From NCBI RefSeq assembly GCF_001865575.2, contig NZ_CP017563.2, forward strand, positions 806,001-870,000: a DNA stretch of 64,000 bases, written 5' to 3'. Source of the DNA: Paraburkholderia sprentiae WSM5005 (lineage in GTDB: Bacteria; Pseudomonadota; Gammaproteobacteria; Burkholderiales; Burkholderiaceae). The notes beneath the pieces are model-generated. The model did not search any database, was not told the DNA's origin, and saw nothing but the letters and a program-made list of their open reading frames with translations. Positions 12,685-38,457 of the stretch are shown piece after piece; within the stretch, counting starts at the first letter, position 1, and every line of letters starts with the position of its first letter. The position numbers were made by a program, and so were the translations under genes.

Positions 12685-12706
12685 TGCTCGTTGACCACGA
12701 AAGTAT
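12677..12706. other. attL: left junction of the serine-recombinase island
   Basis: The host half-site GACCAGC (12677-12683) is followed by the dinucleotide TT (12684-12685) and the 21-bp island half-site 12686-12706, which begins GCTCGTTG and ends AAAGTAT. The island half-site is an inverted, 16-of-21 match to the one at the right end (36803-36823), identical over the inner 8 and outer 7 positions. That is the architecture of attP sites for large serine recombinases. The junction lies exactly where trehalase coding sequence stops. Confidence 0.88.
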
Positions 12707-12849
12707 GTTTTAACACAGGCCCCGCAAAGCCTTACGCGACAGGCGTTCGCGCCGATTACCAATAGCCGGAACACTTCCAGACGTCGAGCGTACGCGTCGC
12801 AGGAATCGCAAGTGCTGACCGAACGTATCGACCCTCGGAGGACTATGCC

Positions 12850-13053
12850 ATGTGTTATCAGAAATCCGTCCAGCTGCTCGAAAACCTGCTGGAAGCCGTA
12901 CCGCACGAACCGAACGAGCGCGGCCATACCGCGATGGATGACTTCGAGCACTTCTGCGCCAATACCGGCTGCACCGAGGAACTGATCGGCCGGCAGGCGT
13001 TCGCTTGGGTCAAGCTCGGCTTCATCGACGCCAAGACAACCGCATCGTGCTAG
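12850..13053 (+). CDS. Small conserved-looking protein, unknown function
   Basis: A 67-residue acidic protein beginning MCYQKSVQLLENLLEAVPHEPN and containing five cysteines and histidines spread over its length. A strong GGAGG lies 8 bases before the ATG, so it is probably translated. No known domain is recognised. It is the first gene inside the left end of the island, separated from attL by about 140 bp. Its position next to the end could make it a directionality factor candidate, but it lacks a recognisable helix-turn-helix, so this is only a thought. Confidence 0.5.
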   Translation: MCYQKSVQLLENLLEAVPHEPNERGHTAMDDFEHFCANTGCTEELIGRQAFAWVKLGFIDAKTTASC

Positions 13054-13483: not shown

Positions 13484-13592
13484 TCATGCAGCGGCCTCGC
13501 GCATCAGTCGTTCGCGCGTCATCCACAGATTGCTTAGAGCGAACAGCGTGTGCAACTCTGCGGGTTCTTCATCAAGCCGCGATAGCCCACCT
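13484..13592 (-). pseudogene. IS5-family transposase C-terminal remnant
   Basis: The minus strand reads KGGLSRLDEEPAELHTLFALSNLWMTRERLM in continuous frame (split here: ELHTLFALSNLWM is the diagnostic part), the usual C-terminal end of IS5-type transposases. No catalytic domain is present. The remnant abuts the 3' end of the TetR gene, whose last codons and stop overlap its edge, so an IS once landed next to or in the end of that gene and was mostly deleted. Confidence 0.6.
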
Positions 13593-14225
13593 TTAGATGC
13601 CACCGTGCGCGGCGATGAACATGGCGACGGCCGACCGGCAATAGGATTCGATTTCGTTGTCATCCTCTGCTCTCGCCTCATCGAAGCGTGCGACAAGCAG
13701 AAGATCGGATCCTTTGAAAAGCGCGGCAAACAAGCGGGCGGACTGGAGAGCATCGGATACGTTCAGCATCCCTTTAGCGTGCAACTGGCGCAACACGGCC
13801 TCGATGTGGGCGATGACATGGACCGGCCCGGCTTCGTAATGGAGCTTGCTTAACGCCTTTTGATTCGTCTTGTCGGCCAAAACCATGGCCTCGACACTGC
13901 GGACGTCCGGGCTCAGCAGCGTGCGAAGCAGGGAGGACCCGACCGCCACCAGCTGATCTTCGGCCGAACCGTCAACGCCTTCAGAAAGGGCCTGGGGTGC
14001 AAATTGATCGCAGCGGGCCACCATGGCCGCGCTGAACAGCGCCTCCTTGTTCTCGAAGTGCCGATAGATGCTGAGCTTGGATATCTTCGCCCGCTGCGCG
14101 ACCTTGTCCATGGTCGTCGCTTGAAAACCCAATTCCACAAAGAGTTCGCAGGCGGCGTCGACGATCGTTTGGCGAAGCGCCTCGTTGGCGGGCCGGCCGC
14201 GCCGGCTCTGGCTGTTTTCGGTCAC
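13593..14225 (-). CDS. TetR/AcrR-family transcriptional regulator
   Basis: A 210-residue repressor. The N-terminal helix-turn-helix spans about residues 12-60 (IVDAACELFVELGFQATTMDKVAQRAKISKLSIYRHF, quoted in parts: TTMDKVAQRAKISKLSIYRHF). The C-terminal ligand domain carries the LLRTLLSPDVRSVEAMVLAD segment common to AcrR-type regulators of redox operons. It is divergent from a thioredoxin-reductase-like gene, with a promoter and palindrome in the 285-bp gap. Its C-terminus ends at the border of an IS5 remnant but length is normal. It likely represses its own gene and the divergent pair. Confidence 0.85.
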   Translation of the reverse strand: MTENSQSRRGRPANEALRQTIVDAACELFVELGFQATTMDKVAQRAKISKLSIYRHFENKEALFSAAMVARCDQFAPQALSEGVDGSAEDQLVAVGSSLLRTLLSPDVRSVEAMVLADKTNQKALSKLHYEAGPVHVIAHIEAVLRQLHAKGMLNVSDALQSARLFAALFKGSDLLLVARFDEARAEDDNEIESYCRSAVAMFIAAHGGI

Positions 14226-14239
14226 AACAATTCCAGTAC

Positions 14240-14510: not shown

Positions 14511-15404
14511 ATGGATGACGTCATCATCATCGGCGGCAGCTTTGCCGGCCTCGCCGCCGCCCTGCAGCTCGGCCGTGCCCGCCGCAAGGTCACGGTTCTC
14601 GATACCGGCCGGCCGCGCAACCGCTTTGCAGGCCACTCGCATGGCTTGCTCGGCCACGATCACAAGCCACCGCTGGACATCCTGGTCGAGGCGCGGCAGC
14701 AGTTGACGCGCTATCCAACGATCAGGCTGGTCAATGCCCGGGCCGAGAGCGTGTCTGGCGCCATCGACGATTTCTGCGTCGTCACTGACGATAACGAAAG
14801 CCTGAGGGCGCACCGCCTGATCCTGAGCTATGGCGTCGCCGACCAGATGCCTGATGTTCCGGGCTTTGCCGAAAGCTGGGGCACGTCCATCGTGCCCTGC
14901 CCCTACTGCGACGGCTTTGAAGTCGCCGGCCAGCATTGGGGCCTCGTCTGGTCCAGCCCGCAGTCGCACCAGTCTGCCAGGCTGTTCCGCGATTGGACGG
15001 ACAAGCTGACTGTCTTCGCCGATGGTCATGACATTGCGCCCGATATCCAGGCCGACCTGGCGCGTCGCAACATACCTGTCGTCGATGGCCGGATCGTCGA
15101 GATCGCCCATCACAAGGGCCATATCAACACCGTCAATCTCGATACCCGCCGCAATGTCGCGGTCGACGTCCTGTTCGCCCATCCGCGCAACAAGCCGTCC
15201 GCACGCCTGCATGAATCACTGGGCCTCGCCACGGTCGATACGCCCACCGGCATCGTCCTCAAAGTCGACGAGCGCCGCCAGACCAGCATGCCCGGCATCT
15301 ACGCCGCTGGCGACCTCGCCACGCCCTTCTTGCCCTCGGTCACCCAGGCTTCATCGCAGGGCGCGATGGCGGGTATCTTCGCCCAGCAGTCGATGGTGGT
15401 TTGA
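14511..15404 (+). CDS. Thioredoxin reductase-like FAD/NAD(P) oxidoreductase
   Basis: A 297-residue flavoprotein. The N-terminus DVIIIGGSFAGLAAALQLGRA is the FAD dinucleotide-binding site; the redox-active CPYC lies near residue 130 (VPCPYCDGFE); the C-terminal GIYAAGDLATP binds the flavin. It resembles the small group of TrxR-like proteins (also gliotoxin/holomycin dithiol oxidase relatives) that lack a standard GxGxxA NADPH site: residues around 145-160 read HWGLVWSSPQS. So electrons may not come from NADPH. It is followed 95 bp later by a methyltransferase and controlled by the divergent TetR. The substrate is unknown. Confidence 0.82.
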   Translation: MDDVIIIGGSFAGLAAALQLGRARRKVTVLDTGRPRNRFAGHSHGLLGHDHKPPLDILVEARQQLTRYPTIRLVNARAESVSGAIDDFCVVTDDNESLRAHRLILSYGVADQMPDVPGFAESWGTSIVPCPYCDGFEVAGQHWGLVWSSPQSHQSARLFRDWTDKLTVFADGHDIAPDIQADLARRNIPVVDGRIVEIAHHKGHINTVNLDTRRNVAVDVLFAHPRNKPSARLHESLGLATVDTPTGIVLKVDERRQTSMPGIYAAGDLATPFLPSVTQASSQGAMAGIFAQQSMVV

Positions 15405-15499: not shown

Positions 15500-16363
15500 A
15501 TGGCAAAGCAAAGTGCTGATCAGGTGGGTGACTGGAATGGTCAAAGCGGGGAGCGCTGGGTCGCCAACCAGGCCCGGCTCGACGCTCTGGTGGCGGTGTT
15601 CGGCCAGGCCGCGATCGAAGCCGCCGCGCCCGCGACGGGTGAGCGCGTGCTGGACATCGGCTGCGGCGCGGGTGCGTCAAGTCTGGCTCTGGCCGCTCGC
15701 GTCGGCGCGGGGGGCCAAGTGCTGGGCGTGGACATATCCGAACCGCTGATCGATCGAGCGCGCGCGCTTGCGCGCCACGATACGCCGGCCCTGTTTCAGG
15801 TGGCCGACGCCAGCAGCGCAGAGCTGCCCGAAGGCGCGTTCGACATTCTGTTCTCGCGTTTCGGCGTGATGTTTTTCCCCGATCCGACAGCGGCGTTCGC
15901 CCATATGCGACGCGCGCTCCGGCCGGGCGGCCGGGTCGCTTTCGTCTGCTGGCGCGGTGCGGCCGAGAACGATTGGATGCGACTGCCGGTGGGCGCGCTC
16001 AAGGACATCGTCCCGCCGAGCGCGCTCCCCGATCCCGAAGCGCCCGGCCCGTTTTCGTTCGGCGACCGGGAGCACGTGGCGCGCATCCTGACGGCGGCCG
16101 GTTTCACCGAAATCGTTATCTCGCCCTTCGACGCGGCCGTCCCATTCGGCGAGGGCGAAACGCGGGACGCGGCGATCGACGACGCAGTGAGGATGACGCT
16201 TGAGGTCGGCCCGCTGTCGCGTGCGCTCGCTGGTCAGCCCGACGACATCCGCGCCCGTGCCTCCGCCGCAGTTCGTGCCGCCTTCGCGAGCCTCCCCGGC
16301 GAGGGGTCGGTGATGATCAACGGCGCGGCATGGGTCGTCATGGCACGAAATCCGGCAAGCTGA
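15500..16363 (+). CDS. Class I SAM-dependent methyltransferase
   Basis: A 287-residue methyltransferase with the SAM-binding motif I VLDIGCGAGASSLALA (residues about 48-63), an acidic motif II end VDIS and motif IV DILFSRFGVMFF. A strong AAGGAGATGAC precedes the ATG. The UbiE/COQ5-like core has an extra C-terminal 100 residues. It lies downstream of the TrxR-like flavoprotein in the same direction and may form an operon with it. The combination of dithiol oxidase-like flavoprotein and methyltransferase suggests detoxification or small-molecule tailoring, which is inference. Confidence 0.83.
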   Translation: MAKQSADQVGDWNGQSGERWVANQARLDALVAVFGQAAIEAAAPATGERVLDIGCGAGASSLALAARVGAGGQVLGVDISEPLIDRARALARHDTPALFQVADASSAELPEGAFDILFSRFGVMFFPDPTAAFAHMRRALRPGGRVAFVCWRGAAENDWMRLPVGALKDIVPPSALPDPEAPGPFSFGDREHVARILTAAGFTEIVISPFDAAVPFGEGETRDAAIDDAVRMTLEVGPLSRALAGQPDDIRARASAAVRAAFASLPGEGSVMINGAAWVVMARNPAS

Positions 16364-16550: not shown

Positions 16551-18176
16551 GTGTCAAAACGCGTCGCCGGTGGGAATTTGACGGCACGGTGTCTCGGTAA
16601 CAGATTGCGGCTTATCGATTGCGCCACGACAAACGCCAATTCAGCGCTGAACGTATCGCAAGGACCGTGATGGGCGTGTGGGCCTCACACCCGCATCGCC
16701 TTCATAACCGTTTCTGAACCGAGAAGCTTGATAACCCGTTTCATGTTGTAGGCGAGCACGTGCAAGCTCATCTCAGTGCTCACCCGCTCGATAGTACGCG
16801 TCAGGAAATGAGTCGCGCCCATCCAGGCCTTGATCGTGCCAAAGGGATGCTCGACGGTCTGTCGTCGGGTACGCATCATGTCTGGGGCGAGATCAAGCCG
16901 GACCTGCATCTCTTCGAGCAATCCTTCGTGCTCCCAGCGTGTCACCCGGCGTTCGGTACCTGGAGTGCATTTGTCTTTCAACGAGCATTGTTGGCACTGC
17001 GAGCTCCAGTAGCGATCTAACTTCAGGCTACGTTCGGTTGTCTTGTAGCGCCATATGAGACGTTCGCCGGCTGGGCATCTATACTCGTTCTTCTCAGCAT
17101 CGTAGATAAAATCTTCTTTGCTGAAACGGCCGTCAGCGGTCGCGGCCGAGGTCTTTGTCTTTGGAACAAACACCGTGATGCCAGCCTCGTGGCATGCGAG
17201 TATCTCCTCGCTCTTGTAATAACCTCGGTCAGCAACTGCCGTTAGTTTATCGACGCCGATTTCCGTGCGCGCCAGCTTGGCCATCGACGTGAGTTGGTCA
17301 CGATCGATGCCGTTGTTGGTGACTTTGTGCGCGACAATCAGATGGTGCTTTGCATCGACTGCTACCTGCACGTTGTAGCCGACGACTCCGGTCCCTCGCG
17401 TCTTCATCGAACGCGCGTCCGGGTCTGTGAGCGACACTTGCTTGTCCGGTGTTGCGTCGAGTTTAACTTCGACTTGCCTGAGGATTTGCATCTGCTCCTT
17501 GAGGGCCGCAATCTTGTCTTGCAGCCGGTCTGTCTTCGCCTTCGCAATCGTAGGCTCCTGACGATCTGCGGTGTCCATTTCCACCAGATAACGGCTGATG
17601 CTTGCCTCGATATCCCGCATTCGCCGTTCTAGTTTTGCGCTCGTGAAGTTGCGGTCGCGATGGTTCACCGCCTTGAATTTGCTCCCGTCTATCGCAACTA
17701 GCGCTTCGGCGAAGAGGTCCAGACGCTGGCATAGCATGACGAACTGACGACAGACGCTGCGGATCGCTTTGCCGTTGTCTTTACGGAACCGCGCAATGGT
17801 CTTGAAGTCTGGCGCCAGGCGGCCCGTGAGCCACATCAGTTCGACGTTGCGCTGAGCCTCGCGCTCAAGGCGTCGACTGGATTGAATTCGGTTCAGGTAA
17901 CCGTAGATATAGATCTTAAGCATCACCTCTGGGTGATACGAAGGTCGACCTGTTAGCGCTGGCTCAACACCTTCAAACCCGAGCTTCTGAAGATCAAGCT
18001 CATCTACAAAAACATCGACTACGCGTACGGGATTGGTGTCCGTCACGTAGTCGTCAAGTGCTTCGGGGAGGAGAAAGCTTTGTGAACGACTGTCGCCCTG
18101 AACGAACCGCTTCATCTCGCTCATCCTCCGCTATCGGACGAGAGATTTTAACGCGTCAAAAATGACGTTTTGACAC
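16551..18176. mobile_element. IS1182-family insertion sequence
   Basis: Terminal inverted repeats GTGTCAAAACG at 16551-16561 and its complement at 18166-18176 bracket a single transposase gene, for a total of about 1.63 kb; the match extends a few bases outward with one mismatch. No clear target duplication is visible. Its right end is only 8 bp from the inverted repeat of the next element. Confidence 0.85.
16685..18124 (-). CDS. IS1182-family transposase
   Basis: A 479-residue DDE transposase, full length. The N-terminal domain includes GRPSYHPEVMLKIYIYGYL; the catalytic core begins with AIDGSKFKAVN (first Asp), continues with VAVDAKHHLIVAHKVTN (second Asp) and later KTKTSAATADGRF. Cysteines QCQQCSLKDKC in the insertion region are typical of the IS1182 group. 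It appears intact, so the element may still move. Confidence 0.9.
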   Translation of the reverse strand: MSEMKRFVQGDSRSQSFLLPEALDDYVTDTNPVRVVDVFVDELDLQKLGFEGVEPALTGRPSYHPEVMLKIYIYGYLNRIQSSRRLEREAQRNVELMWLTGRLAPDFKTIARFRKDNGKAIRSVCRQFVMLCQRLDLFAEALVAIDGSKFKAVNHRDRNFTSAKLERRMRDIEASISRYLVEMDTADRQEPTIAKAKTDRLQDKIAALKEQMQILRQVEVKLDATPDKQVSLTDPDARSMKTRGTGVVGYNVQVAVDAKHHLIVAHKVTNNGIDRDQLTSMAKLARTEIGVDKLTAVADRGYYKSEEILACHEAGITVFVPKTKTSAATADGRFSKEDFIYDAEKNEYRCPAGERLIWRYKTTERSLKLDRYWSSQCQQCSLKDKCTPGTERRVTRWEHEGLLEEMQVRLDLAPDMMRTRRQTVEHPFGTIKAWMGATHFLTRTIERVSTEMSLHVLAYNMKRVIKLLGSETVMKAMRV

Positions 18177-18442: not shown

Positions 18443-19465
18443 CTACGCAGCTCTCACACTGACGTGATTCTTTTCGTAACTGCTCTCGTGGGCTAGTATG
18501 GCCCAAGCAATTCGCGCCATCTTATTTGCAAGAGCCACGGCTACTACGTTGTTAGGTCGCCGCTCTTGAATTCCTTTCTGCCAAGCAGTTGGTACCTTGG
18601 CGTGACACAGGACGGAGCGCGCCCCGTGAATCAGCAGCGTGCGCAGGTATGGGTCCCCTCGCTTTGAGATCGAGCCCAATCTAACCTTGCCGCCCGTACC
18701 GTTTTGTCGAGGAACAAGCCCGAGAAATGCAGCGAACTCACGTCCCGACTTGAACGTCTTGGCATCTCCAACTGTTGCGACCAAAGCGGTGGCGGTGAGT
18801 CTGCCGATGCCCGGCACTTCGGAGATTGCGCGACACGCCGCTTCCTGTTTCTGCCAGGCACCGATGCGCTTCTCGAGTTGACTGATATCGTCCTCAAACG
18901 CGTTGATACGTCGTAGCTGATCTTGCAGATTAAGGACGATCGGTCGTGGCAACGTGTCCTCTAACTCTGCCATGCGTTCGCGGATTTCAGTGAGTCCTGC
19001 CAATCGTCCGGCCCGAAACGTCGCGCCGAATTCGTAGAGCAACCCACGTAGCTGATTCACCTGCATCGTCCGAAACTTGACGAGCAACGAGCGCATGCGG
19101 TGCAGGCTCAGCATCGTTTGCTGATCTTCTGTCTTTGCAGCAACCGTGCGCATCCCGGGTTGCTGTACAGCCGTCCAAATCGCCCGAGCGTCCGCTGCGT
19201 CGGTCTTGTTCGTTTGTACGAATGGCCGAATAAATTGTGCATGTAGTAGCACGACCTCGTGCCCCAGCGCCCGAATCTTACGCGCCCACCAGTGAGCACT
19301 TCCGCAAGCCTCAAGCGCCACTCGACCTGCTGGGCGTTGCGCGAAAAACGCGATTAGATCGTCGCGTCCGAACCGGCGATTGGCTATCTCACCAGTTTGT
19401 GCGTCGACCCAGTACATCTGGAACACCCGCTTTGCAACATCCAGTCCATATGTCGTAGCATTCAT
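18443..19465 (-). CDS. IS110-family DEDD recombinase
   Basis: A 340-residue recombinase. The RuvC-like DEDD domain starts MNATTYGLDVAKRVFQMYW, with the later acidic residues in ALEACGSAHWW and NKTDAADARAIW. The C-terminal Tnp domain carries ISEVPGIGRLTATAL and SISKRGDPYLRTLLIHGAR, including the conserved serine region. Full length, apparently active. It works with an element-encoded RNA rather than by DDE chemistry. Confidence 0.92.
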   Translation of the reverse strand: MNATTYGLDVAKRVFQMYWVDAQTGEIANRRFGRDDLIAFFAQRPAGRVALEACGSAHWWARKIRALGHEVVLLHAQFIRPFVQTNKTDAADARAIWTAVQQPGMRTVAAKTEDQQTMLSLHRMRSLLVKFRTMQVNQLRGLLYEFGATFRAGRLAGLTEIRERMAELEDTLPRPIVLNLQDQLRRINAFEDDISQLEKRIGAWQKQEAACRAISEVPGIGRLTATALVATVGDAKTFKSGREFAAFLGLVPRQNGTGGKVRLGSISKRGDPYLRTLLIHGARSVLCHAKVPTAWQKGIQERRPNNVVAVALANKMARIAWAILAHESSYEKNHVSVRAA

Positions 19466-19836: not shown

Positions 19837-22035
19837 TTACACCGAAGGCCGCTCCCCGCGAGATGCTCCGGTCAGCGCTTCGACCAGTTCCGCAAGCGCA
19901 ACCGGCTTGACGAAATGCCGTTCGAATCCTGCTTCGTTCGAACGCCTGCGGTCCTCGGCCAGCCCGTAGCCGGTCAGCGCGAACACCCTCACGGGCGTCG
20001 CCGTCTGCTGTGCGCGCAGCGCGCGGGCGAGCTGATATCCGTCCATTCCGGGCAAGCCAATGTCGAGTATCGCGAACGCCGGGGAGAACGCCGCCGCTAC
20101 CTCGAGCGCGGTCGCTGGATCGGTCGCCGTCGCCACGTGGAAACCCATCTCGACGAGATAGGCTTCCATCGCCATCAGGCCGTCCTTGTTGTCGTCGACC
20201 AGCAGCACGCGCACGCCGTTGCCGTCCGGATGCGGCGCGGCCGGCTGCTTCCCGCGATCGGTCGTGGGTGCCGATGCGGCCGGGAGCGTGACGGTGAAAG
20301 TCGCGCCCCTACCCGGTCCGTCGCTGCTTGCGACGACCGTGCCGCCGTGCAGTTCGACAAAGTTCTTCACGAGCGCAAGACCCACCCCGAGCCCGCCGTT
20401 CGCGCGGTCGATCGTCGTCTGTCCCTGTTCGAAGAACGAGAACAGACGCGGCATCAAATCCGCGCTGATTCCAACGCCGTTGTCCGCCACCGACACGACG
20501 ATTTCAGTGGTGCTCGACACGGCTTTTACATGAATGCGCCCATCCGTCTGCGTGAACTTTGCGGCGTTGTTCAGCAGGTTGCCGAACACCTGCGTGAGAC
20601 GGACGGGATCGCCGGACACTGTGCCGCCGTCGTCTGCGAGGTCCAGCGACAAGGTCTGTGAACGTTGTTCGAGCAACGGATTCGCTGCCTCGATCGCGCG
20701 CGCAAGCACCGTCGCGATCGGCACGGGCTCGCGGGCCAGTTCGATCGTGCCGCGCGTGATGCGACTCACGTCCAGCAGATCCTCTACGAGCCTCGACAGA
20801 TGCGCCACTTGACGCTCGATGATGTCGTGGTGTTTGTCGGTCGTGCCGCCGTTTTGCTTGCGCACGAGCACGAGCGCGGTCGAGATCGGCGCGAGCGGAT
20901 TGCGAAGCTCGTGGCCGAGCATCGCGAGAAATCGATCTTTTGCACCGTTCGCGTTGCGCAGATCCGCGAGCAGCGCTTCGCGCTCGGTGCGCGACTTCTC
21001 GACGGCCTCGCGTGCACGTACGTAGCTGGTCACCTCGACGGCACTGAGGATCACGCCGTCGACGTTTCCCGACGACGCGCGCAACGGTTCGAAATGAAGC
21101 GTATAAACGCGCTCGTCGCCGTCGCCGGTTCGGTTTGCCCGATACTCTTCATGGACGATCGGCACGCCATCGGCGAACACGCGCTGCAGCGCGGCGACAA
21201 TCGCGCCGCCCGCCTCCTCCGGAAATGCGTCGAGATAAGCGAGGTCGATCAGGTCCGCGCGGCCGACCATCGCGAGATAGCGGGGATTCGTCAACTGAAA
21301 CGTATGCCGGCTGCCGAGCAGCAGTGCCGACGCGATCGGCGAATTCATCAGCACGGCATCGCGCTGAAGCTCGGCGCTCCTTCGGCGGCGCATCTCGTCT
21401 TCGAGCGACGTCGCGCGCTGCTGCGCGAGCGCGAGCCTCAGATGCAGGTCCTGATCGCCTGCGTCGCGCCACGCACGGGTAAGCAATACATGCTGGTGTG
21501 CGTTGCAAATGTGACGAAATAGCGGCGTATGCTCGGCGCCGACGAACGCCCGGTCAGGATACGCGCAGAAAAGCGAGAACCGGTGCTCGCGGGCGAGTCC
21601 GTTCCACAGGTCTTCCAGATGCAGCGCTGCTTCGCCGAGACCCTGCGCGTACAGGATCGCGACCATCTCGCCGAACGCGTGCACCGGCTGCCCTGCTCGC
21701 ACGGTCCGCGCGACGAGCGCACCGACCGTCGACATGAAGCGCGCGTCGTCCGGCCACCCGTCGACCATGAAGCCGTCGAGCGCGACCTGCGCGTCGACGA
21801 AAACGGCGTCGTGCGCGCGACGCCTGGCAGTATCGGCCGAGTCGAGCCATGACGTCAGCGAGGCAACGTGATCGGCGGTGGCGATCGCAATGGCACTCCC
21901 CCCCGCGCCCAGCGCGCGGTGCAGAAACGCGCCGACGTCCTCGATCAATTCGACGTCGGACTCGTAGAACTGGACGAAATGGTTGGAATCGTGTTCGGTG
22001 TGCCGAGCCGCAGCCGGCTCTATGCTGGTCGTCAT
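19837..22035 (-). CDS. Hybrid histidine kinase with MEDS sensory domain
   Basis: A 732-residue soluble sensor. Order: MEDS (DcmR-type) sensory domain about residues 15-180 (HFVQFYESDVELIEDVGAFL, FCAYP); PAS domain about 235-345; HisKA with phospho-acceptor FLAMLGHELRNPLAPI; HATPase with N box NLLNNAAKF, DNGVGI and NGGLGVGLALVKNF; C-terminal receiver with LLVDDNKD and DIGLPGMDGYQL. The start at 22035 is chosen at the first homologous Met; an upstream in-frame Met at 22320 adds 95 low-complexity residues. MEDS domains are thought to bind small C1-type or hydrophobic ligands. No cognate regulator is adjacent. Confidence 0.87.
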   Translation of the reverse strand: MTTSIEPAAARHTEHDSNHFVQFYESDVELIEDVGAFLHRALGAGGSAIAIATADHVASLTSWLDSADTARRRAHDAVFVDAQVALDGFMVDGWPDDARFMSTVGALVARTVRAGQPVHAFGEMVAILYAQGLGEAALHLEDLWNGLAREHRFSLFCAYPDRAFVGAEHTPLFRHICNAHQHVLLTRAWRDAGDQDLHLRLALAQQRATSLEDEMRRRRSAELQRDAVLMNSPIASALLLGSRHTFQLTNPRYLAMVGRADLIDLAYLDAFPEEAGGAIVAALQRVFADGVPIVHEEYRANRTGDGDERVYTLHFEPLRASSGNVDGVILSAVEVTSYVRAREAVEKSRTEREALLADLRNANGAKDRFLAMLGHELRNPLAPISTALVLVRKQNGGTTDKHHDIIERQVAHLSRLVEDLLDVSRITRGTIELAREPVPIATVLARAIEAANPLLEQRSQTLSLDLADDGGTVSGDPVRLTQVFGNLLNNAAKFTQTDGRIHVKAVSSTTEIVVSVADNGVGISADLMPRLFSFFEQGQTTIDRANGGLGVGLALVKNFVELHGGTVVASSDGPGRGATFTVTLPAASAPTTDRGKQPAAPHPDGNGVRVLLVDDNKDGLMAMEAYLVEMGFHVATATDPATALEVAAAFSPAFAILDIGLPGMDGYQLARALRAQQTATPVRVFALTGYGLAEDRRRSNEAGFERHFVKPVALAELVEALTGASRGERPSV

Positions 22036-23448: not shown

Positions 23449-23530
23449 GGGCTGTTCTGGAGAGGTTGTAGCACGCAGCAATCTAAATATAGCGTAACAT
23501 CAAAAGTTGCGCATTATCAAGTTTCCACTT

Positions 23531-28548: not shown

Positions 28549-30303
28549 TTACGGCAGCGCGAACACAACAATCGCGTCGCCGCGCTTGTAGTCGAGTAGC
28601 TGGTTGCCGCCCGCCGCAACCGCCACATATTGCTTGCCGCGCACCGAGTACGACACCGCTGGGGCGTTGACGCCGGCGCCGCACTGGAACTCCCACAACT
28701 TCTTGCCGGTGCGCGCATCAAATGCGCGAAACAGGCCGTTGCCTTCTCCATTGAAGACGAGATTGCCCGCCGTCACCAATACGCCGCCGATCAGCGGCTG
28801 ATCGGTTTTAAACGACCAGACGATCTTCCCGGTGTCGACGTTCACCGCTGCGAGCTTGCCCCACTGCTGTTCGCTCGGAATGGTCTTGAATGAACCGCCA
28901 AGCCACATCTTGCCGCCGCCCGGATACGGCGCGTCCTCGACCTGGTATGTCAACGGACGATGCAGGTTGGCCGCATACACGAGACGCGTCTCGGGGCTGT
29001 ACGCCGTCGGCGACCAATTGACTCCGCCGTTCGCACCCGGCAGCATGTGCGCGCCCTGCGGCGTTGGCAGCGTCCACATGTTCTCTTGCGGGATCATCGC
29101 CGGCGAGAAGCGGATTAACTGGCCCGATGCGCGATCATGCACATAGACATGCCCGGTCTTTCCGGCATGGATTACCCCAGATACCATGCGTCCGTCGCGG
29201 TCGCGCACATCCACCAGGATTGGCGGGCTCGCCGCGTCGAGGTCCCACACGTCATGCGGGATGTACTGGTAGTGCCACTTGTACTTGCCGGTGTCGAGGT
29301 CGACCGCCACCATCGAGTCGGTAAACAGATTGTCGCCGGGACGTATTGCGCCATAAAAGTCAGGCGAGGGGTTCCCAACCACGAAGTACACCGTGCGCGT
29401 TTTCCGGTCGATCGCTGGCGTCATCCACACGCCGCCGCCGAGCGTCTTGTAGAAGTCGCTACCCTTCTCAGCAAGTTGCTTCTTCTCGGCATCGATATTG
29501 CGTTTAAGGTCCCGGCCGGTCGCATCCCGGGTCGCCCACACGCCTTCCTGTCCGGATTCGGGAATCGTGTAGAAGGTCCAAAGCAGTTGACCTGTGTTGG
29601 CGTCGAACGCTTTCAGGGAGCCGCGAACGCCGTACTCACCCCCGTTGATGCCAATCAGTACCTTGCCATCGACCACAATCGGCGCCATCTTCTCGCTGTA
29701 GCCCAGCTCGGGATCGCCGACCACGATATCCCACAGAAGTTTGCCGGTCCGGGCGTCGAGCGCCACCAGCTTTGCGTCGAGCGTGCCCATGAATAGTTTG
29801 TCGCCGTAGATCGCCACGCCGTGGTTGGTCGGTCCGCAGCAGAAGGCAGTAACGGGTCCCAACTTGTGCTGGTAGTGCCATAACTCCCGGCCGGTCGCCG
29901 CATCGATCGCATAGACATGATCGAACGACGTGGTCAGGAACATCACGCCGTTCACCACCAACGGTGAGGTTTCGAGTGGTCCGTTGACCGCCGTCTGGAA
30001 GACGAATGCCGGCTTCAGTTTCGCCACGTTCGTGGTATTGATCTGTGCGCCCGGGTAGTAGCGCGTCTGATCATACGAGCCGTTGGGAAGCAGCCAGTCC
30101 GCCACGTTGGACGCGGCGGTGTCCAACTGGCTTTGCGTGACTGTCGGGCGTGGCGACGCCGACAGGAGCATATCGGCCGACCCGCCTGTGACCTCGGGCC
30201 CTGCAAGGGCGCCGGCTGGCGCCACCGTCAGCGTAGCCAGGAAGGCGAATACGAACGTTCGACGAAGTCTGCTATCGCGCCTTGTATGGGCGTTGGGCTG
30301 CAT
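28549..30303 (-). CDS. PQQ-dependent alcohol dehydrogenase, secreted
   Basis: A 584-residue eight-bladed quinoprotein. A signal peptide covers about residues 1-34 (ends GALA-GPE). PFCCGP-type vicinal cysteines ([11 protein letters not shown]) sit over [15 protein letters not shown] carries the catalytic Asp. The W-motif repeats ([43 protein letters not shown]) are plain. No cytochrome c domain is fused, so a separate electron acceptor is needed. The start at 30303 is supported by GAGGAGG 7 bases upstream. An Asp two residues after the catalytic Asp occurs in lanthanide enzymes but also in glucose dehydrogenases. No PQQ synthesis genes are in the window. Confidence 0.87.
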
Positions 30304-30661
30304 AGTGACCTCCTCGGGACGAGGAAACGTTCGGATCCGAACCAAGGGCAGAACAACCCAATAAGTTTAGGTTGCGTGTACGACACCGACAAACTTCAAT
30401 AAACAAAAGACCTGAAGACCCGGACGAGTCGTCGCCCCGGCGCGGCCTTAACGGCGGCTTCCAAGGTTCAGCTGACGTTCGGGTGTCCTTGCGAATGCAC
30501 GGGCGGATGACCGTACCTGGCCGAACTGTGACGGTCGCAGCTGGTGGGATGGTCCGAAGTAGCCTGCTGGCCAGCAGGCTGCCTTCGTCTGTTCCGCATC
30601 CGGCGCAGGCGCGCACGCGATCATCTGCTGCGCGCGCAATAGTGGCGTAGCGCAAGCGGTG
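30304..30661. other. Spacer with a perfect 20-bp palindrome
   Basis: 358 bp between two minus-strand genes. AGCCTGCTGGCCAGCAGGCT at 30561-30580 is perfectly self-complementary. It could form a strong hairpin after the NHL-repeat gene, although no T-run follows, or act as a protein-binding dyad upstream of the PQQ dehydrogenase. The promoter of the dehydrogenase should also lie here. Confidence 0.55.
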
Positions 30662-31816
30662 TCACCACCACCATGGAAGCAACGCACCGCCATCTTTGCG
30701 ATCGGTGCGATCACCGGGGCGCCCCGCATCGCCGCCGTCGCGGTCCTCATCACGTTCTTCGCAGCGGCGCCCGGCTTTCGGCAGGCCGCTTACCTTGCGA
30801 ATGTACCCGGAGCCAGCGAAGAACAGATCGCCCTCGGGTCCAAACGCGAGCCCCCTGGGACCGCCTATGCTAGCTTGAGTGGCAAGGCCGCCGTCGCCGC
30901 CGTAGGAGTCCTGCCCGTTGCCGGCAATGGTTGTGACGATGCCGGTTTGCCTATTCACCTGACGCACGCGGGCGTTGAAGGTATCGCTGATCGTCAGATT
31001 GCCCGCGCAGTCAAACGCAATGTGCGTTGGGATGTTCAAGAAAGCATCGGTCGCCGCAATGCCATCTCCGTTATAGCACCCGGACGCCATCAAGCCCGCC
31101 CCCGAGCAAGGGGGCGACTTCCCGGCTACCGTGGTGATAGTGCCTGTTCTTTTGTCCACCCGGACGACCGTTGCCGGAGAGGGATCGACTATGTAGAGGT
31201 CGCCGTGCGGGCCAAAGGCGATAGCCAGGATGTAACTGGACGCAAGCTTGACGGCGGTCGTGATGATTCCCGTTTCGTGGTCCACGCGCCGGATGCGTGC
31301 TGCCGCCGAATCGGCGATGTACAGATCACCTTCCCGGTTCAGGGCCACGTCGGTTGGGAACAGCGCGGCCTGAGTGGCCGGCCCCCCGTCGCCGCGGTTG
31401 GCGCTGCCAACGCCCGGACCTGCAACAGAAGTAATGATCCCCGTTTTTCGATCCACCCTTCGCACGACTCCGACGTATGGATCCGCAACGAACACATTGC
31501 CTGCTCGGTCAACCACAACCCCTGACGGATAGTCGAGACTGGCGTTCGTCGCTGGGCCGCCGTCGCCGCTGTAGCCTTCTTGCCCGTTGCCGGCAACGGT
31601 CGTGACAATTCCGCTCTCGTGATCGATGCGGCGAACGACGCGAAATGTCGGTTCGGCAGTGTATATGTTTCCCCATCGGTCCAGCGCGATGGCTTCTGCG
31701 GCGATTCCGGCCGCACCTGCGCCGCCCTGACCGGGGCCCGCGACGGTGCTGATGATCTGCGCGGCGGCGGGGTTTGCCGTCGCAATTAGCAGCAGTGCGT
31801 AAAGGGCCCGCAACAT
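30662..31816 (-). CDS. Secreted NHL-repeat protein
   Basis: About 384 residues from MLRALYALLLIATANPAAAQ, a signal peptide with cleavage after AAA; an upstream Met at 31855 is also in frame. The body has about six NHL/teneurin-type blades of the pattern GIVTTVAGNGQ-GYSGDGGPAT-ASL--P-GVVVDRAGN-YIAD. The C-terminal 45 residues are unusually Arg/Asp-rich (CEERDEDRDGGDAGRPGDRTD) and unlike the rest, suggesting a late frameshift or foreign tail. It precedes the PQQ dehydrogenase on the same strand, 358 bp away. NHL propellers serve in protein or ligand binding; the role is unknown. Confidence 0.78.
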   Translation of the reverse strand: MLRALYALLLIATANPAAAQIISTVAGPGQGGAGAAGIAAEAIALDRWGNIYTAEPTFRVVRRIDHESGIVTTVAGNGQEGYSGDGGPATNASLDYPSGVVVDRAGNVFVADPYVGVVRRVDRKTGIITSVAGPGVGSANRGDGGPATQAALFPTDVALNREGDLYIADSAAARIRRVDHETGIITTAVKLASSYILAIAFGPHGDLYIVDPSPATVVRVDKRTGTITTVAGKSPPCSGAGLMASGCYNGDGIAATDAFLNIPTHIAFDCAGNLTISDTFNARVRQVNRQTGIVTTIAGNGQDSYGGDGGLATQASIGGPRGLAFGPEGDLFFAGSGYIRKVSGLPKAGRRCEERDEDRDGGDAGRPGDRTDRKDGGALLPWWW

Positions 31817-31855
31817 GACAGCGATGCTCGGACAGAGCTGTGTTCCGTGCGACAT

Positions 31856-32602: not shown

Positions 32603-32821
32603 CTATTGACCAGCGTCGCCTGAAATCCAAGTTCGAACGACGACATCAACGGTGGCCGCAACAGTACTCCAATCGTCAGGATCGAGGCCGTGCGCGTCGA
32701 TCCCGTTCAGCGCTTCGGCAGCCAGTTGCTCCGAGCGGGCGGCCGACATGTTAAAGCGCTCTTGGATGAGCCTCGCCGTTCTTTGCAAGCTTTCCGAGCT
32801 GTAACGTTGAGTCATTGCCAT
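32603..32821 (-). CDS. Small helical hypothetical protein
   Basis: 72 residues: MAMTQRYSSESLQRTARLIQ then ERFNMSAARSEQLAAEALNG and an acidic C-terminus with WSTVAATVDVVVRTW. Largely alpha-helical by composition. It overlaps the end of the upstream gene by 10 bp, so the two are translated together. No family is recognised; it is likely a partner of the DUF6966-like protein. Confidence 0.55.
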   Translation of the reverse strand: MAMTQRYSSESLQRTARLIQERFNMSAARSEQLAAEALNGIDAHGLDPDDWSTVAATVDVVVRTWISGDAGQ

Positions 32822-33123
32822 TCGCCCGTTCTGAGTCTTCTCGCAAGGTCGTAAATTTCGCTACGAAGTTTATCGAAACGCTCGTTGTCGCCCACATCCA
32901 GCAGCACTCCGACGCCACCATTACTTCGCTGCAGAACCACGTCGTTCAGGCTGCCCATTCCTCCATATGCGGAAAGCAAATGTTCGAGGCCATAGCCATC
33001 CAGAGAGCGAATCAGCCTTGCATCCTTGGTCAACCATTCCGCCCATCGAACCTGTCCATAGGAGCGAAGCAATGCTTCCGCCTGATCGAGCATTTGGGCA
33101 AGAGAGTTTATTTCTGAATGCAT
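32812..33123 (-). CDS. DUF6966-like small protein
   Basis: 103 residues beginning MHSEINSLAQMLDQAEALLR. The segments WAEWLTKDARLIRSLDGYGLEHLLSAYGG (given here in part: YGLEHLLSAYGGMGSLND) match, by recall, a family of about 100-residue proteins of unknown function (DUF6966) often found beside polymorphic-toxin immunity genes. The C-terminal helix RFDKLRSEIYDLARRLR is also typical. First gene of a two-gene minus-strand unit. Confidence 0.6.
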   Translation of the reverse strand: MHSEINSLAQMLDQAEALLRSYGQVRWAEWLTKDARLIRSLDGYGLEHLLSAYGGMGSLNDVVLQRSNGGVGVLLDVGDNERFDKLRSEIYDLARRLRTGEWQ

Positions 33124-33422: not shown

Positions 33423-34065
33423 CTATGCGAGCCCTTGCGCTGTCATCGCCAGGAGCAGCCGTTCCGCGCCGATGCCGAAGCCCGCGCCTTCCCGATATGC
33501 CCCGCCGCCTACCACCTGCTGTTGCGCTCCGAGTTCGGTGCAGCGCATCTCGAAGCCTCGGCCGCTCAGATAGTAGCTGAGGCCCCTCCGAGCTGAGCCG
33601 TCGATTTCATAGCTAAGTCCAAGTGAATCAAAAAAACCAATCGCTATCTCCTGGCTACGCTTGACCGCCAATTCGGGATCGGGGCATAGATACTCGAATC
33701 CCAGTTGCGAGAATTCACGATACCGACCAGCTTGCGGTCGTTCATAGCGATAGCATCGAGCGATATAAAACAACATTCGCTCCTGTCGGCGCCCCAGCAG
33801 CTCCATACACCGCTCCTGGAAAAGAGCCGTCGCCTCCGGGATCAGGCAGCAGTCGCGTCCCTTTTTATCCGGGAACGCCCACATTTGGCCGATGATTTCA
33901 CTGCCGCCGGCCTTTTGAATGAACGTATCTTGCGACCACAAGGCCGGAACGATAGCCTCTTCTGCTCCAACGTCAATGAAGATAGCTCCGGAACTGACTT
34001 TCCAGAGCGCGTATTTGCGCGGCTTCCTTACCAACGATGAAACGGGTTCCGCGAATCATGGTCAT
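33423..34065 (-). CDS. HisRS-like catalytic-core protein, +1 frameshift
   Basis: Class II aminoacyl-tRNA synthetase core of histidyl type. It starts at ATG 34063-34065 behind a good AGAGGA site with MTMIRGTRFIVGKEAAQIRA and FRSYLH, meets TGA at 33973-33975, and continues one base later (+1) as DVGAEEAIVPALWSQDTF. Motif 2 is FYIARCYRYERPQAGRYREF, the histidine motif is RRGLSYYLSGRGFE, and motif 3 is GFGIGAERLLLAM, ending eight residues later. The combined length of about 213 residues has no anticodon-binding domain, so it is not a normal HisRS. A His-codon attenuator precedes it. It is either a recent pseudogene, a sequencing error or a recoded gene. Confidence 0.78.
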
Positions 34066-34240: not shown

Positions 34241-34253
34241 GTTGTCAATGTTG

Positions 34254-34627: not shown

Positions 34628-34855
34628 GTGAGCGCAGTTCAATGGGAAGGCTACACAATTACCGGTGAGGATGGTAGACCCGCGACACTCGCGGTTATCG
34701 ACCAAGATGGCAAAGTCCTCGACGCGGGGCCAGAAGTAGCACAAGAAATTTGGGACTTGGCTATCCTATCGTACCGACAGGTCCTTGTCGGCGAAAGCCT
34801 ATTACGGATCTACTCTACGCCCGAAGGACTCTTGCAGGATAGCGACGACGAATAA
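34628..34855 (+). CDS. Small hypothetical protein next to the recombinase
   Basis: About 75 residues from a GTG at 34628 (VSAVQWEGYTITGEDGRPAT) to an acidic end (LLQDSDDE). The frame is open further upstream to 34535, but that part is antisense to the GNAT fragment. Codon use looks coding and the gene is followed by a shared terminator with the recombinase. No family is recognised and no ribosome site is seen, so the start is uncertain. Confidence 0.45.
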   Translation: MSAVQWEGYTITGEDGRPATLAVIDQDGKVLDAGPEVAQEIWDLAILSYRQVLVGESLLRIYSTPEGLLQDSDDE

Positions 34856-34858
34856 AAA

Positions 34859-34879
34859 GCGGCCCACGATAGGGGCCGC
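34859..34879. terminator. Bidirectional terminator
   Basis: GCGGCCC-ACGATAG-GGGCCGC forms a 7-bp GC stem between two convergent genes. AATAAAAA precedes it and CTTATTA follows, so it can serve both the small gene (34855) and the recombinase (34904). Confidence 0.75.
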
Positions 34880-34903
34880 CTTATTATCCGAATTCGCTTG
34901 CGC

Positions 34904-36619
34904 TCATTTCATTCGAGGCGTGCGGGCCGGTTTGGGTAGTGGTTTCGACTTGCGCGTCTTTGTTGCCTCAATCAGTTCTCCGGTTCGCCGGTTAAATTCG
35001 AAGCCCATGACCACGCCGCGCTTCGACGTTACCCGAACGGCCATATGCTCGCCATCGCACTCGAACCCCTTCGAGAAAACGTCGATGCGTTCGAACGTCT
35101 CCTGTACTAACCTACGCGTCTTCATCCTGGCATCGTAATCGAGCGCCATGACGTCCGAGACGAGTTCGGCCCACGTCTCAGCCGGTGCGGGTTGCGCAGC
35201 CGAATTGATGGACAGTTCGCGCTCGAGCTTCGTGATCGCCTGCGTCAGCGTTCGCTTGTTCGTCTCAAGCTCGCGCAAGACTTCGCGGAACGTCGACGGT
35301 AGCGCGTCGCCATTCAGCATCTCGTCCTTGATACCCTTAAGCTTCAGGTCTGTCTTCGCGAGCGAAGCCCGCTTCGCCGTCAGTTGCCTCATGAGCGGAT
35401 CTGACTTGTCGTTGCCGGTGAACAGATGATCGAGATTCATCTGGTTTGCGCAGAACGTCATGATCGCCTTCTCAACCGGGACGCCGCTACAACTGGCACC
35501 GCCTCGACAGTCAGCCGCTCGATTGGCATACGAACCGCAGCGCAAGCGACGAAAGTTCTGATGCGTTGTTCCATCTGCTCGCGTTGTCGTAAGCGTCTGC
35601 CCGACCATAAGTTGGCGGCAGTACCCGCAATAGCACATCTTCATACCCGTCAGGATGGCAGGGACTTTACCTTTGCCTTTGCGGACGCCCCTCTTGCCGA
35701 CGAGCAACTGTAGTTCGTCGAACTCGGTCTCGGTTACGACCGGCGGATAGTAGCCCTTGAGCGTATAGGTCTGGCCGTCTACGACGACCACCTTGTCGCC
35801 TTTCAACGCGGGATAGGTAATCAGCTTGTGGATTCTGACGACCGCGCGCTTGTCACTAATCGTTAGCCCTTCGGTCTCCATGCGGCGCGTGATCTCGACC
35901 GAACCGTGGCCCTGCCTATAGAGTTCGATGATTCGTTGCATTGCAGCAGCCTTCTCGGGTACAAGCTCGAAACGCTTCGCTTCCGTGTCGTAGAGAATCC
36001 AGATCGGATCTGTGCCTTTGATCAGCTTTCCGTCTGATGCGCGAATATGCCTCGGCTGTCCGATCAGTCCGCGATACTCGCCTTTAAGCCAGCGCTCGCA
36101 CTTGTCCCGATACGCCCCGCGAGCGTTCGACGACTTCCGACTGCTCTCGTCGTACGCCCGGACCATGACCGCGAGCGCAAGGAATAGCGGCGATGGATCG
36201 CGCGCTAGTTCCTCACGGTTGTAGCGTACGCCGTCGTGCATCGTGACGATATCGACGCCGTAGGTATTCACGATGGCGTTGAACTGCGTCTGCGCGTCCT
36301 GCGCGCTCTGGCGGCTCAGGCGGTCAAGGTTTTCGACGATCAGCGTATCGCCGGGTACGACGTCACCGGCCTTGATACGCTCGATGAACGCGCCGAGCGC
36401 GCCGCCCTTCTTTACGTGCTCGCCCTTGTGAGCGGACTTGCCGCGGTCCTCCATGCGTAACGAGCGATCGAGTATCAGGCCGTGCTGCTTGGCCCACGCT
36501 TCGGCGTAGGCATCCTGCCGTGCGATCGAGCTACCGTCTGCCTGCTGTAAGCTGGAAAAACGGGCGTATGTATAGATTCGTGGCGTGTTGCTTGTCGCGC
36601 TTTGCGCTTTCGTTGACAT
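34904..36619 (-). CDS. Large serine recombinase (island integrase)
   Basis: 571 residues. The resolvase domain (about 1-170) starts RIYTYARFSSLQQADGSSI with the nucleophile Ser, followed by ENLDRLSRQSA with the catalytic Arg. The recombinase domain (about 190-300) includes LIKGTDPIW and ITRRMETEGL. A zinc ribbon is seen in CYCGYCRQLMVG and LRCGSYANRAADC. A coiled coil covers about residues 440-490 (LAKTDLKLKGIKDEML, LETNKRTLTQAITKLEREL). The start at 36619 is behind AGGAT. The open frame continues 58 codons upstream into island-end sequence, but that part is the antiparallel-frame trehalase tail. Its location 184 bp from attR fits the integrase of this island. Confidence 0.93.
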   Translation of the reverse strand: MSTKAQSATSNTPRIYTYARFSSLQQADGSSIARQDAYAEAWAKQHGLILDRSLRMEDRGKSAHKGEHVKKGGALGAFIERIKAGDVVPGDTLIVENLDRLSRQSAQDAQTQFNAIVNTYGVDIVTMHDGVRYNREELARDPSPLFLALAVMVRAYDESSRKSSNARGAYRDKCERWLKGEYRGLIGQPRHIRASDGKLIKGTDPIWILYDTEAKRFELVPEKAAAMQRIIELYRQGHGSVEITRRMETEGLTISDKRAVVRIHKLITYPALKGDKVVVVDGQTYTLKGYYPPVVTETEFDELQLLVGKRGVRKGKGKVPAILTGMKMCYCGYCRQLMVGQTLTTTRADGTTHQNFRRLRCGSYANRAADCRGGASCSGVPVEKAIMTFCANQMNLDHLFTGNDKSDPLMRQLTAKRASLAKTDLKLKGIKDEMLNGDALPSTFREVLRELETNKRTLTQAITKLERELSINSAAQPAPAETWAELVSDVMALDYDARMKTRRLVQETFERIDVFSKGFECDGEHMAVRVTSKRGVVMGFEFNRRTGELIEATKTRKSKPLPKPARTPRMK

Positions 36620-36660
36620 GGTCCATCTATCCTGTGGCGTACTAGCTCTATTGAGCGAAT

Positions 36661-38457
36661 CTATTCGCGGCAATCGAGCTTCGTTGAACTCATCGCGTCC
36701 GGATAGAGCTGCATCAGCACGCGTAGCACACCAGCGGTCGAGCCTTCGCTTCCATTCGGCTGAAGCCCTTGCTGGACGGAGCCCTGCGGGCATTCATCTA
36801 TTATACTTTGAGGTCCAACGAGCTCGCCGGTGCGCTGATAGTACGCAACGTCGGTGCGAATCCAGCGGGTCGCGATATCGCGCGCGAGCTCCGGCTCGCT
36901 ATAGCGGCGCAGCCCCATCACCGCGAGGTACTGCAGCGGCGCCCAGCCGTTCGGTTCGTCCCACTGCTGGCCGGTGGTGGTCCGCGTCGTCGCGAGACCG
37001 CCCGGGCGCAGCAGATCGCGTCGGATCGTCTGCGCCACCTCGCGCGCGTCGTTGCGCGTCGCGACCCCGGCGTAGAGGGGATACACGGTCGCGGCAGTGA
37101 GCCGATGCGTGAGCGTGCGGTGCACGAAGTCGTAGTCGCCGAATGCGTGCAGTTGCGGATCCCACAGCACCCGGCGGATTGCATCCGCGCGCACACGGGC
37201 GCGCAGTTCGAGGTTCTCGGCGTGGCCTGCGTCGCCGGTCACACGGTAGGCTTTCGCGAGCGTGCGTTCGAGGTCCACCATCAGGCAGTTCAGGTCCACG
37301 GGCACTAGCGACGTCACGTCGACGGTCGCGAGGGTCTTGCCGTCGGCGAACCAGCGTGAGCTGAAATCCCAACCGGTTTCGCCGCCCGCGCGCAAATTGC
37401 GCCACAAATCCTGCGCATCGCGTTGCGGCATCTGCTGCGCCGTCATCACATCCTCGCGGTACGACTCGTCACGCGGCGCCGCGCGCTCGTCCCAGTAGCG
37501 GTTGAGCAGCGTGCCGTCGGCGAGGCGCACAAGATGGTGCGCGGCGTTGCCAGGCGCGAGATGCTCGCTGCCGGCCATCCAGTACGCGTATTCACGGCGC
37601 AGCTCGGGCAGATAGTGGGCATAGACCTGATCGCCCTCTTTGCGCGCGACGAGCTGCACCATCTGCGCGAAAAACGGCGGCTGCGAGCGGCTAAGGTAAT
37701 ACGTGCGATTGCCGTTGGGTATGTGGCCATAACGGTCGATCAACGTCGAGAAATTGTTCAGCTCGTCGTCGACGAGCGCATGCTGGCCACTCGCGTCGAG
37801 CCCGAGCAGGATGAAGTACGAATCCCAGTAGTAAATCTCGTCGAAGCGGTCGCCCGGCACGATGTACGGCGATGGCAGCGGCAACAGCGACGAGTACGGG
37901 CTGGCGTTTGCGTCCGGCTCGCGGCGCAGCACGTTCCACAGCGTGTCGATGTGCGCGGTGACGCTCTCGTTCGGATCGGACGCGTAGCGCTTCGGCGCGC
38001 GTGGGGGCAGCGTGAAGCGCCGTTCGACGAATTGCTTCAGGTCGAACTGCGGCTGCGCGCGCCGGCTGTTGTAGTCGGCGACGACCTGCGTCGGCGGTTC
38101 GTCTGGCGACATATCGGCGAACGTCTTGCTGTCCGCGTAAAGACGCGCCAGCTCGACGTCGCGATACAGCTCGCCGTACAGCTCGGACGGCGGCGTCGGC
38201 ACGACCGGCGACGGCTGCGCGTGATCCGTGTTTTCGGCCTGCCGGAGCGCAGCGCTGCTGGCGGCATTCGCAGCGACGGCCGATGCGGGCAGCGCGACGG
38301 CCGGCACGGCGGGCTGAGTCTGCGGGTAGGTCGGCGCGGATTGCGCGCTGACGCGGGTGCTCGCAGCGAACGCCAGTGCGGCGGCCACGCAGGCCGCAGC
38401 GCGGCGGGATGGCCACGCGCGAAACGACAGGCAGGGGAAATCGTCGGGAGATGGCAT
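36661..38457 (-). CDS. treA: Periplasmic trehalase (GH37) with island-supplied C-terminus
   Basis: 598 residues as it now reads. A signal peptide covers about residues 1-38 (ends VSA-QSA) with an Ala/Pro-rich linker. Trehalase signature 1 is VPGDRFDEIYYWDSYF, the catalytic-acid region GETGWDFSSRWF, and signature 2 QQWDEPNGWAP. Normal sequence ends at RTG (codon at 36826-36828). The remaining 54 residues come from the island: ELVGPQSIIDECPQGS through to [13 protein letters not shown] and a stop at 36661. The normal KLVEKYDV and Gly-rich loop remain 24 kb away. Because EKYD holds, by my placement, the catalytic base (Glu496 of E. coli TreA), the present protein is probably inactive. Confidence 0.92.
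   Translation of the reverse strand: MPSPDDFPCLSFRAWPSRRAAACVAAALAFAASTRVSAQSAPTYPQTQPAVPAVALPASAVAANAASSAALRQAENTDHAQPSPVVPTPPSELYGELYRDVELARLYADSKTFADMSPDEPPTQVVADYNSRRAQPQFDLKQFVERRFTLPPRAPKRYASDPNESVTAHIDTLWNVLRREPDANASPYSSLLPLPSPYIVPGDRFDEIYYWDSYFILLGLDASGQHALVDDELNNFSTLIDRYGHIPNGNRTYYLSRSQPPFFAQMVQLVARKEGDQVYAHYLPELRREYAYWMAGSEHLAPGNAAHHLVRLADGTLLNRYWDERAAPRDESYREDVMTAQQMPQRDAQDLWRNLRAGGETGWDFSSRWFADGKTLATVDVTSLVPVDLNCLMVDLERTLAKAYRVTGDAGHAENLELRARVRADAIRRVLWDPQLHAFGDYDFVHRTLTHRLTAATVYPLYAGVATRNDAREVAQTIRRDLLRPGGLATTRTTTGQQWDEPNGWAPLQYLAVMGLRRYSEPELARDIATRWIRTDVAYYQRTGELVGPQSIIDECPQGSVQQGLQPNGSEGSTAGVLRVLMQLYPDAMSSTKLDCRE
36678..36732 (-). repeat. 55-bp repeat of the trehalase 3' end, island copy
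   Basis: Matches 12541-12595 at 51 of 55 positions with mostly silent differences. It lies inside the island, 71 bp from the right half-site, and is in frame with the trehalase body. The bases between it and the junction are a strongly diverged version of the normal end (for example GLQPNGSEGSTAGV against [13 protein letters not shown]). Confidence 0.9.
36803..36834. other. attR: right junction of the island
   Basis: The island half-site 36803-36823 (ATACTTTG...CAACGAGC), dinucleotide TC (36824-36825) and host half-site GCCGGTGCG (36826-36834). Together with attL it defines attP (two island half-sites around the centre) and attB (GCACCGGC-AA-GCTGGTCG on the minus strand), each with dyad symmetry about the same centre. 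The central dinucleotide differs between attL (AA) and attR (GA) on the minus strand, which needs a mutation after integration or a crossover shifted by one base. Confidence 0.85.

Follow-up and report, generated by a model that had tools for sequence, protein, structure and literature searches.

A 24-kb serine-recombinase island in treA of Paraburkholderia sprentiae WSM5005 and the gene end supplied at its border

The trehalase gene treA of Paraburkholderia sprentiae WSM5005 is in two pieces, a body of 1632 bp and a tail of 245 bp, located 24.1 kb apart. What separated the two pieces, and what protein does the locus now encode? In the window, the whole stretch of 64,000 nucleotides that was analysed, the gene is interrupted by a 24-kb mobile island with a phage-type serine recombinase. 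Most probably, a grounded prophage or island was integrated by its large serine recombinase at treA codon 545, leaving a chimeric, probably inactive TreA.

The insertion and its attachment sites

The host gene and the island borders comprise the following features:
12440..12683, minus strand: native 3' end of treA, now detached (final base of codon 545, then codons 546-625 and stop), intact in relatives
12684..12685, no strand: central dinucleotide of attL, TT
12686..12706, plus strand: P (island) arm of attL
36803..36823, minus strand: P (island) arm of attR
36824..36825, no strand: central dinucleotide of attR, TC
36826..38457, minus strand: codons 1-544 of treA (host body), encoding a GH37 trehalase with a signal-like N-terminus (Pfam PF01204, E 3.8e-127)

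Rejoining the treA flanks by keeping 12684-12685 and dropping 12686-36825 yields 626 codons, stop counted. The P arm 12686-12706 and the reverse complement of 36803-36823 match at 16 of 21 positions, with the inner 8 and the outer 7 identical. A match of at least 16 of 21 was reached by one in 200,000 random pairs of island 21-mers. The island half-sites are GCTCGTTG / GCTCGTTG and the host half-sites GCTGGTCG / GCCGGTGC; the inner GC(T/C)(C/G)GT pattern is all that the host arms share. The first-pass annotation had named the 626-codon trehalase, the arm match and the inner pattern, and all were reproduced on recomputation. As in elements of large serine recombinases, attP and attB are unlike each other and each forms a rough palindrome around the dinucleotide. 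The att centre is located about 205 bp upstream of the recombinase ATG.

Related loci support an insertion. The treA gene is continuous across the joint in 19 of 19 same-genus loci inspected (L002-L020), all with Lys at the joint codon. The treA body has 63-79% identity to treA-class matches in same-genus genomes and was matched in 24 of 59 genomes (own, same genus and same order). A trehalase match at E 1e-20 or better is present in 105 of 144 genus genomes, a count that takes in the own genome and also a further trehalase class with about 50% identity. P. podalyriae WC7.3b (L039) has an intact treA with 90.8% nucleotide identity to the window over 3287 bp, and its empty site is identical to the predicted attB over CGACCAGCTTGCCGGTGCGCTG. 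From the continuous relatives and this empty site we infer that the island is a precise insertion and dismiss an ancestral split. The proposed check on related loci lacking the island has thus returned the intact gene with the predicted joint, and, together with the arms and the recombinase domains, it upholds the first reading of a precise serine-recombinase island with readable attL and attR. An assembly or chance artefact is highly improbable: the whole island was found in a single genome, which would suit an artefact, but it lies well inside a 974-kb contig, and the same attR chimera occurs in P. podalyriae and P. atlantica.

One correction concerns the core dinucleotide. The left copy is TT; the right copy at 36824-36825 is TC and not TT, and codon GAG replaces AAG. 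Because the core copies differ (TC/GAG versus TT/AAG), the 626-codon count alone does not fix the joint; a TT core is better argued from the relatives, whose joint codon encodes Lys. A remnant of the junction in P. podalyriae has AAG (TT) where the window has GAG (TC). As the remnant keeps TT at this place, the simplest reading of the window's TC is a later mutation. Crossover to the left of TT, with Glu as the original host codon, is less likely: the Lys codons of the 19 relatives and of P. podalyriae speak against it, and Arg at the joint in P. atlantica TreA and in one of eight closer relatives (CGG) favours variation on the host side. Core mismatches should, as a general rule, hinder excision by large serine recombinases. 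The one-transition difference between TT and TC should accordingly hinder excision of the island. A strict identical-core rule does not explain the Arg/CGG joint codon and the TT/TC cores, which is a point against the favoured integration at codon 545.

The target had also been described as an active-site codon. This description is loose: the cut falls at Lys545, three codons before the presumed catalytic base Glu548. The Glu of the VEKYD motif corresponds to index 466 of the 2jf4 chain, which we take to be residue E496, the catalytic base. A second treA copy in genome G079 is broken right after the same TG residues and was considered as a second break at the target codon. It was rejected, as the joined sequence looks like an insertion sequence: 36 matches to it are spread over G079, the majority of them at the ends of contigs.

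The chimeric end of treA

The treA body does not end at the junction, as had been proposed, but runs on into the island:
36661..38457, minus strand: chimeric treA ORF of 598 residues, of which the final 54 are encoded from the joint codon onward
36745..36823, minus strand: island-encoded linker of the chimera, replacing the EKYDV... stretch
36678..36744, minus strand: island copy of the treA 3' segment, 60/67 nucleotides identical to 12541-12607

The treA frame is open for 54 codons into the island and is the only frame open between the joint and the stop at 36661, located 41 bp before the recombinase ATG at 36619. The tail copy starts 81 nucleotides from the core codon, compared with 78 natively, and is in the same frame. 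Four of its seven differences from the native 67 bp change residues. The tail part is an in-frame replacement end homologous to the target, as in gene-end-restoring elements; the linker part is non-homologous to trehalase. The stretch EKYDV...GGGEY is replaced in the chimera. Because Glu548 and the GGGEY stretch are replaced, a loss of trehalase activity is expected and the chimeric TreA is probably inactive. An alignment of the chimera to the E. coli trehalase 2jf4 spans 87-593. Predicted structures have a helix at 572-584 in the chimera and at 571-583 in the native protein; these are poor models (mean pLDDT 58.4 and 60.2) and lend weak support only.

The favoured mechanism starts with a prophage-derived, grounded element that would have used its own large serine recombinase for a site-specific integration at treA codon 545. 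The attP flank of the element would carry the 54-codon replacement treA end, captured partly from a trehalase of this clade. The integrated state would yield the 598-residue chimera in which the last helix is regained while Glu548 and the GGGEY segment are absent; this protein may fold and is likely inactive. A different role of the tail is unlikely, namely that it serves the recombinase, with the treA promoter driving recombinase expression in the integrated state and the stop at 36661 setting termination or coupling. The shared strand, the short gap of 41 bp and the single open frame fit this role, but it leaves unexplained why a trehalase segment and not any short end is present, and the promoter is putative.

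Trehalose turnover matters in stress, and an integration-linked trehalase off state could therefore have a phenotype. A second trehalase gene encodes LVEKY and has intact motifs. It would buffer the loss of treA.

The recombinase and the island body

The recombinase gene lies beside the chimeric end:
34904..36619, minus strand: large serine recombinase, 571 aa (Pfam Resolvase and Recombinase; PHROG 95 integrase, E 3.4e-56)
34628..36619, minus strand: block of 1992 bp with 97.3% identity to a prophage contig (recombinase and 276 bp downstream)

The protein has PF00239 (E 4.5e-13) followed by PF07508 (E 6e-9), the domain arrangement of a large serine recombinase. The nearest recombinases, with 98% identity, are encoded by Paraburkholderia sp. 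MM5384-R2 and by the IMG/VR contig 2852791565_000001 (29.9 kb). A Pfam scan of eight ORFs of this prophage contig revealed a tail-tip J/phage-tail protein adjoining the recombinase, an NlpC/P60-JAB protein and the type I restriction-modification proteins HsdR, M and S. The contig stops exactly at the recombinase start, so a treA-like tail or the use of treA as target cannot be read there, which counts against integration of a prophage-derived element at treA as the best explanation. Relatives of the recombinase are encoded on 18 IMG/VR contigs. Among 144 genus genomes, 8 (own included) encode a recombinase matching at E 1e-60 or better, the next best with 52% identity; in the family sample, matches at 1e-90 are present in 11 of 398 genomes (own included).

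The upstream side of 16 relatives' loci is occupied by seven rimO-like genes, three short-chain dehydrogenases, two MFS-like genes, one aldo/keto reductase, one thioesterase and two unclear genes. Pfam confirmed the family for one rimO, two dehydrogenases, the reductase and the thioesterase. The third dehydrogenase (L022) has 71% DNA identity to a dehydrogenase gene of the window, and its fragment had no Pfam match. The MFS-like genes (L023 and L084) were named by eye, their fragments likewise without a Pfam match. In these two loci, from different genomes, the recombinase is located at the same FFxGYxLFEV motif; the MFS-like gene reads towards the recombinase and stops almost at once. Because of these early stops, a homologous tail is, judged from the loci compared, no habit of the recombinase family. 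As to other elements in treA, there is no treA match in the 18 IMG/VR loci and 17 relatives' loci (the set without L032), a weak negative, as most of the 18 virus records break off at the recombinase or close to it. AGTATA was tried as a shared P-arm motif of the family and rejected; in 4 of 16 relatives it lies close to the junction, but its orientation is wrong for a common P arm.

Enzymes at four loci (L034, L035, L024 and L028) are cut near conserved motifs, the dehydrogenase Y-x3-K, a DTADVY-like motif of the reductase and the thioesterase GHLNN; the motifs were read by eye and the families assigned by Pfam. At these loci it looks as if active-site DNA were a favoured target.

The entry of such an element into a coding gene has precedents. 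Burkholderia phage JC1 is described as integrating in rimO by a serine recombinase; phage DNA supplies a replacement start that keeps the frame and changes 6 of the first 10 residues, and RimO likely stays functional according to the authors (PMC9144972). The JC1 recombinase is 40.9% identical to the island recombinase, and both enter a coding gene and supply a new gene end. The seven relatives' loci that adjoin a rimO-like gene, one confirmed by Pfam, resemble JC1 in this respect. In contrast, JC1 is a working phage that replaces a 5' end, whereas the island replaces a 3' end with the presumed catalytic base.

The integrase of e14 of E. coli belongs to a different class from the island serine recombinase. 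The e14 element is reported to carry the 3' end of its target icd, re-supplying 54 C-terminal residues in frame and leaving the native end as a remnant (PMC11148124, PMC6379469). The island is alike in all three respects: 54 C-terminal residues, an intact frame and a native end left behind. The e14 product is a working Icd with two conservative replacements, whereas the island end drops presumed active-site residues. Large serine recombinases are described as inserting in conserved coding DNA, for example 33 at one prolyl isomerase site (Durrant et al. 2022, PMC10083194); the island shares the enzyme class and the conserved coding site. The word trehalase is absent from the main text of that paper, and open-access main texts yielded nothing on point for trehalase paired with a serine integrase, a prophage or an integrative island. 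The earlier statement that this target is not described for the recombinase class is therefore upheld for trehalase within open-access main texts, but not for conserved coding sites, where entry is well described. Insertion in a coding gene with re-supply of its end is already known from other elements; the trehalase target and an end that deletes the active site look new. The active-site region of a metabolic enzyme is added to the targets of serine recombinases; the empty site is available from a near relative, and an attP/attB pair has been predicted.

The island body contains regulators, enzymes and transposases:
13593..14225, minus strand: TetR regulator, cargo
14511..15404, plus strand: FAD/NAD(P) oxidoreductase, cargo, with similar genes on rhizobial plasmids
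15500..16363, plus strand: SAM methyltransferase, cargo
16685..18124, minus strand: IS1182-family transposase
18443..19465, minus strand: IS110-family transposase
19837..22320, minus strand: hybrid histidine kinase
22474..23481, minus strand: alpha/beta hydrolase
23507..23968, plus strand: Rrf2 regulator
24185..25144, minus strand: SRAP-domain protein
28549..30345, minus strand: PQQ-dependent dehydrogenase
30662..31855, minus strand: NHL-repeat protein
32812..33123, minus strand: DUF6966 protein
33423..34034, minus strand: histidyl-tRNA-synthetase-like fragment

The GC content of the body is 0.596, compared with 0.623 for the window. No phage structural or packaging genes were recognised in 31 island ORFs by Pfam and 20 by PHROGs, all among the longer ORFs, and no relaxase or conjugation genes in the 31 ORFs by Pfam. 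In the ORFs scanned, the gene content is that of neither an intact prophage nor an integrative-conjugative element. The failure to recognise phage structural genes, together with core copies that differ by one base, suggests an element that has become fixed in place. A similarity search with the island found zero phage records and 101 plasmid records, none covering 80%, with 15 of the 101 listed. Rfam had zero matches over 12000-38000, and PADLOC, run on 10 proteins, had only domain matches to the histidine kinase.

Some part of 24100-34900 was matched in 102 of 144 genus genomes (own included) at E 1e-50, at scattered loci. Island pieces occur elsewhere with, for example, 99% identity to a second copy on contig C5 of the own genome and 99% to G135:C266. 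This mosaic of pieces found elsewhere in the genus is a further point against the favoured integration. The island may not be one integrated unit: after the insertion of a prophage, IS- or homology-driven exchange would have replaced its body, so that only the ends and the recombinase are original. We regard this history as evenly balanced. The prophage identity ends at 34628, and scattered matches of the body pieces and two IS elements inside agree with an exchange; on the other side, no island with the original body was found for comparison. It is also largely compatible with the favoured integration at codon 545.

Several parts of the body have close counterparts. The PQQ dehydrogenase region 28341-30526 has the 99% identical second copy on C5. 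Among the matches listed, the cassette of TetR regulator, FAD oxidoreductase and methyltransferase (13456-16434) has 92.7% nucleotide identity to a Cupriavidus necator N-1 replicon and, over part of its length, 86-90% to plasmids of Rhizobium and Sinorhizobium, many of which come from bean nodules. A 75-bp island sequence (19588-19662) is present twice on the prophage contig (L087 9676-9750 and 12792-12867), with 89 and 92% identity.

The chimeric end in other genomes

Of the 144 genus genomes, only G000 and G135 have a match (95% or more) to 36640-36900 over its full length. In the P. podalyriae remnant, treA is retained from about codon 457 on, with the joint and the tail of the chimera and then the recombinase up to residue 105; other genes and a second native treA tail follow. 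Its tail has Leu-to-Pro and Leu-to-Phe changes in the helix. A remnant that matches it lies at C3:417-422 kb of the own genome and includes recombinase residues 2-98 together with native-tail pieces. A protein search with the last 53 chimera residues had one match, the TreA of P. atlantica (575 aa), the one protein of three candidates that carried the chimeric tail. LVEKYD is present in 8 of 8 close relatives compared, which have an intact treA in the same clade. Read from these sequences, the chimera is present in three Paraburkholderia genomes. Three insertions would account for them, as supported by intact treA within the same clade.

Other searches delimit this distribution. The P. atlantica TreA tail as query retrieved only itself among 39 candidates, and the tail protein search returned no chimera from the strain holding the 98% identical recombinase. 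Plasmid records had zero matches, and exact IMG/VR scans found a linker string and the left arm zero times each. In the 398-genome family sample, three genomes match the tail, and among the matches listed, in which G135 does not appear, only the window's own extends beyond the native tail part.

The ends of the window and P. atlantica TreA have the same length and no indel. In the first 30 of 54 residues, 19 agree, and in the last 24, 22 agree (Fisher p 0.024, for one sequence pair at protein level with a linker/tail boundary chosen by the analyst). The tail copy could nevertheless be a passive relic, a reading that has a substantial chance, though somewhat less than an even one: aberrant recombination would have left 67 bp of treA beside the recombinase, unselected and in frame by chance. 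An open linker of about 27 codons requires no special cause, most differences from the native copy alter residues, the P. podalyriae copy is decaying, and the MFS-like loci L023 and L084 show that family members need no tail. A relic does not account for the frame, which is the native one, the nearly native distance to the core, and the tail of P. atlantica, which has kept its length next to a diverged linker. The case for selection on the tail comes from the one pair, and the helix of the P. podalyriae remnant is changed; both count against the capture of a replacement end as part of the favoured integration.

A more far-reaching proposal is possible but doubtful. A small phage-derived lineage may keep a mimic of the last trehalase helix in its attP flank, so that, on integration, an inert segment takes the place of the catalytic one and the protein still folds. 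This would be a lysogenic conversion that turns an enzyme off without truncation, in at least three Paraburkholderia genomes. The replacement end raises the question of whether mobile elements select for target-gene products that fold but have lost their function.

The own genome (C3:410000-429000, L068) and P. podalyriae (L038/L069) have in common an older, rearranged copy of the treA-MFS end, which lies among glycosyltransferase-like ORFs and is accompanied by recombinase pieces.
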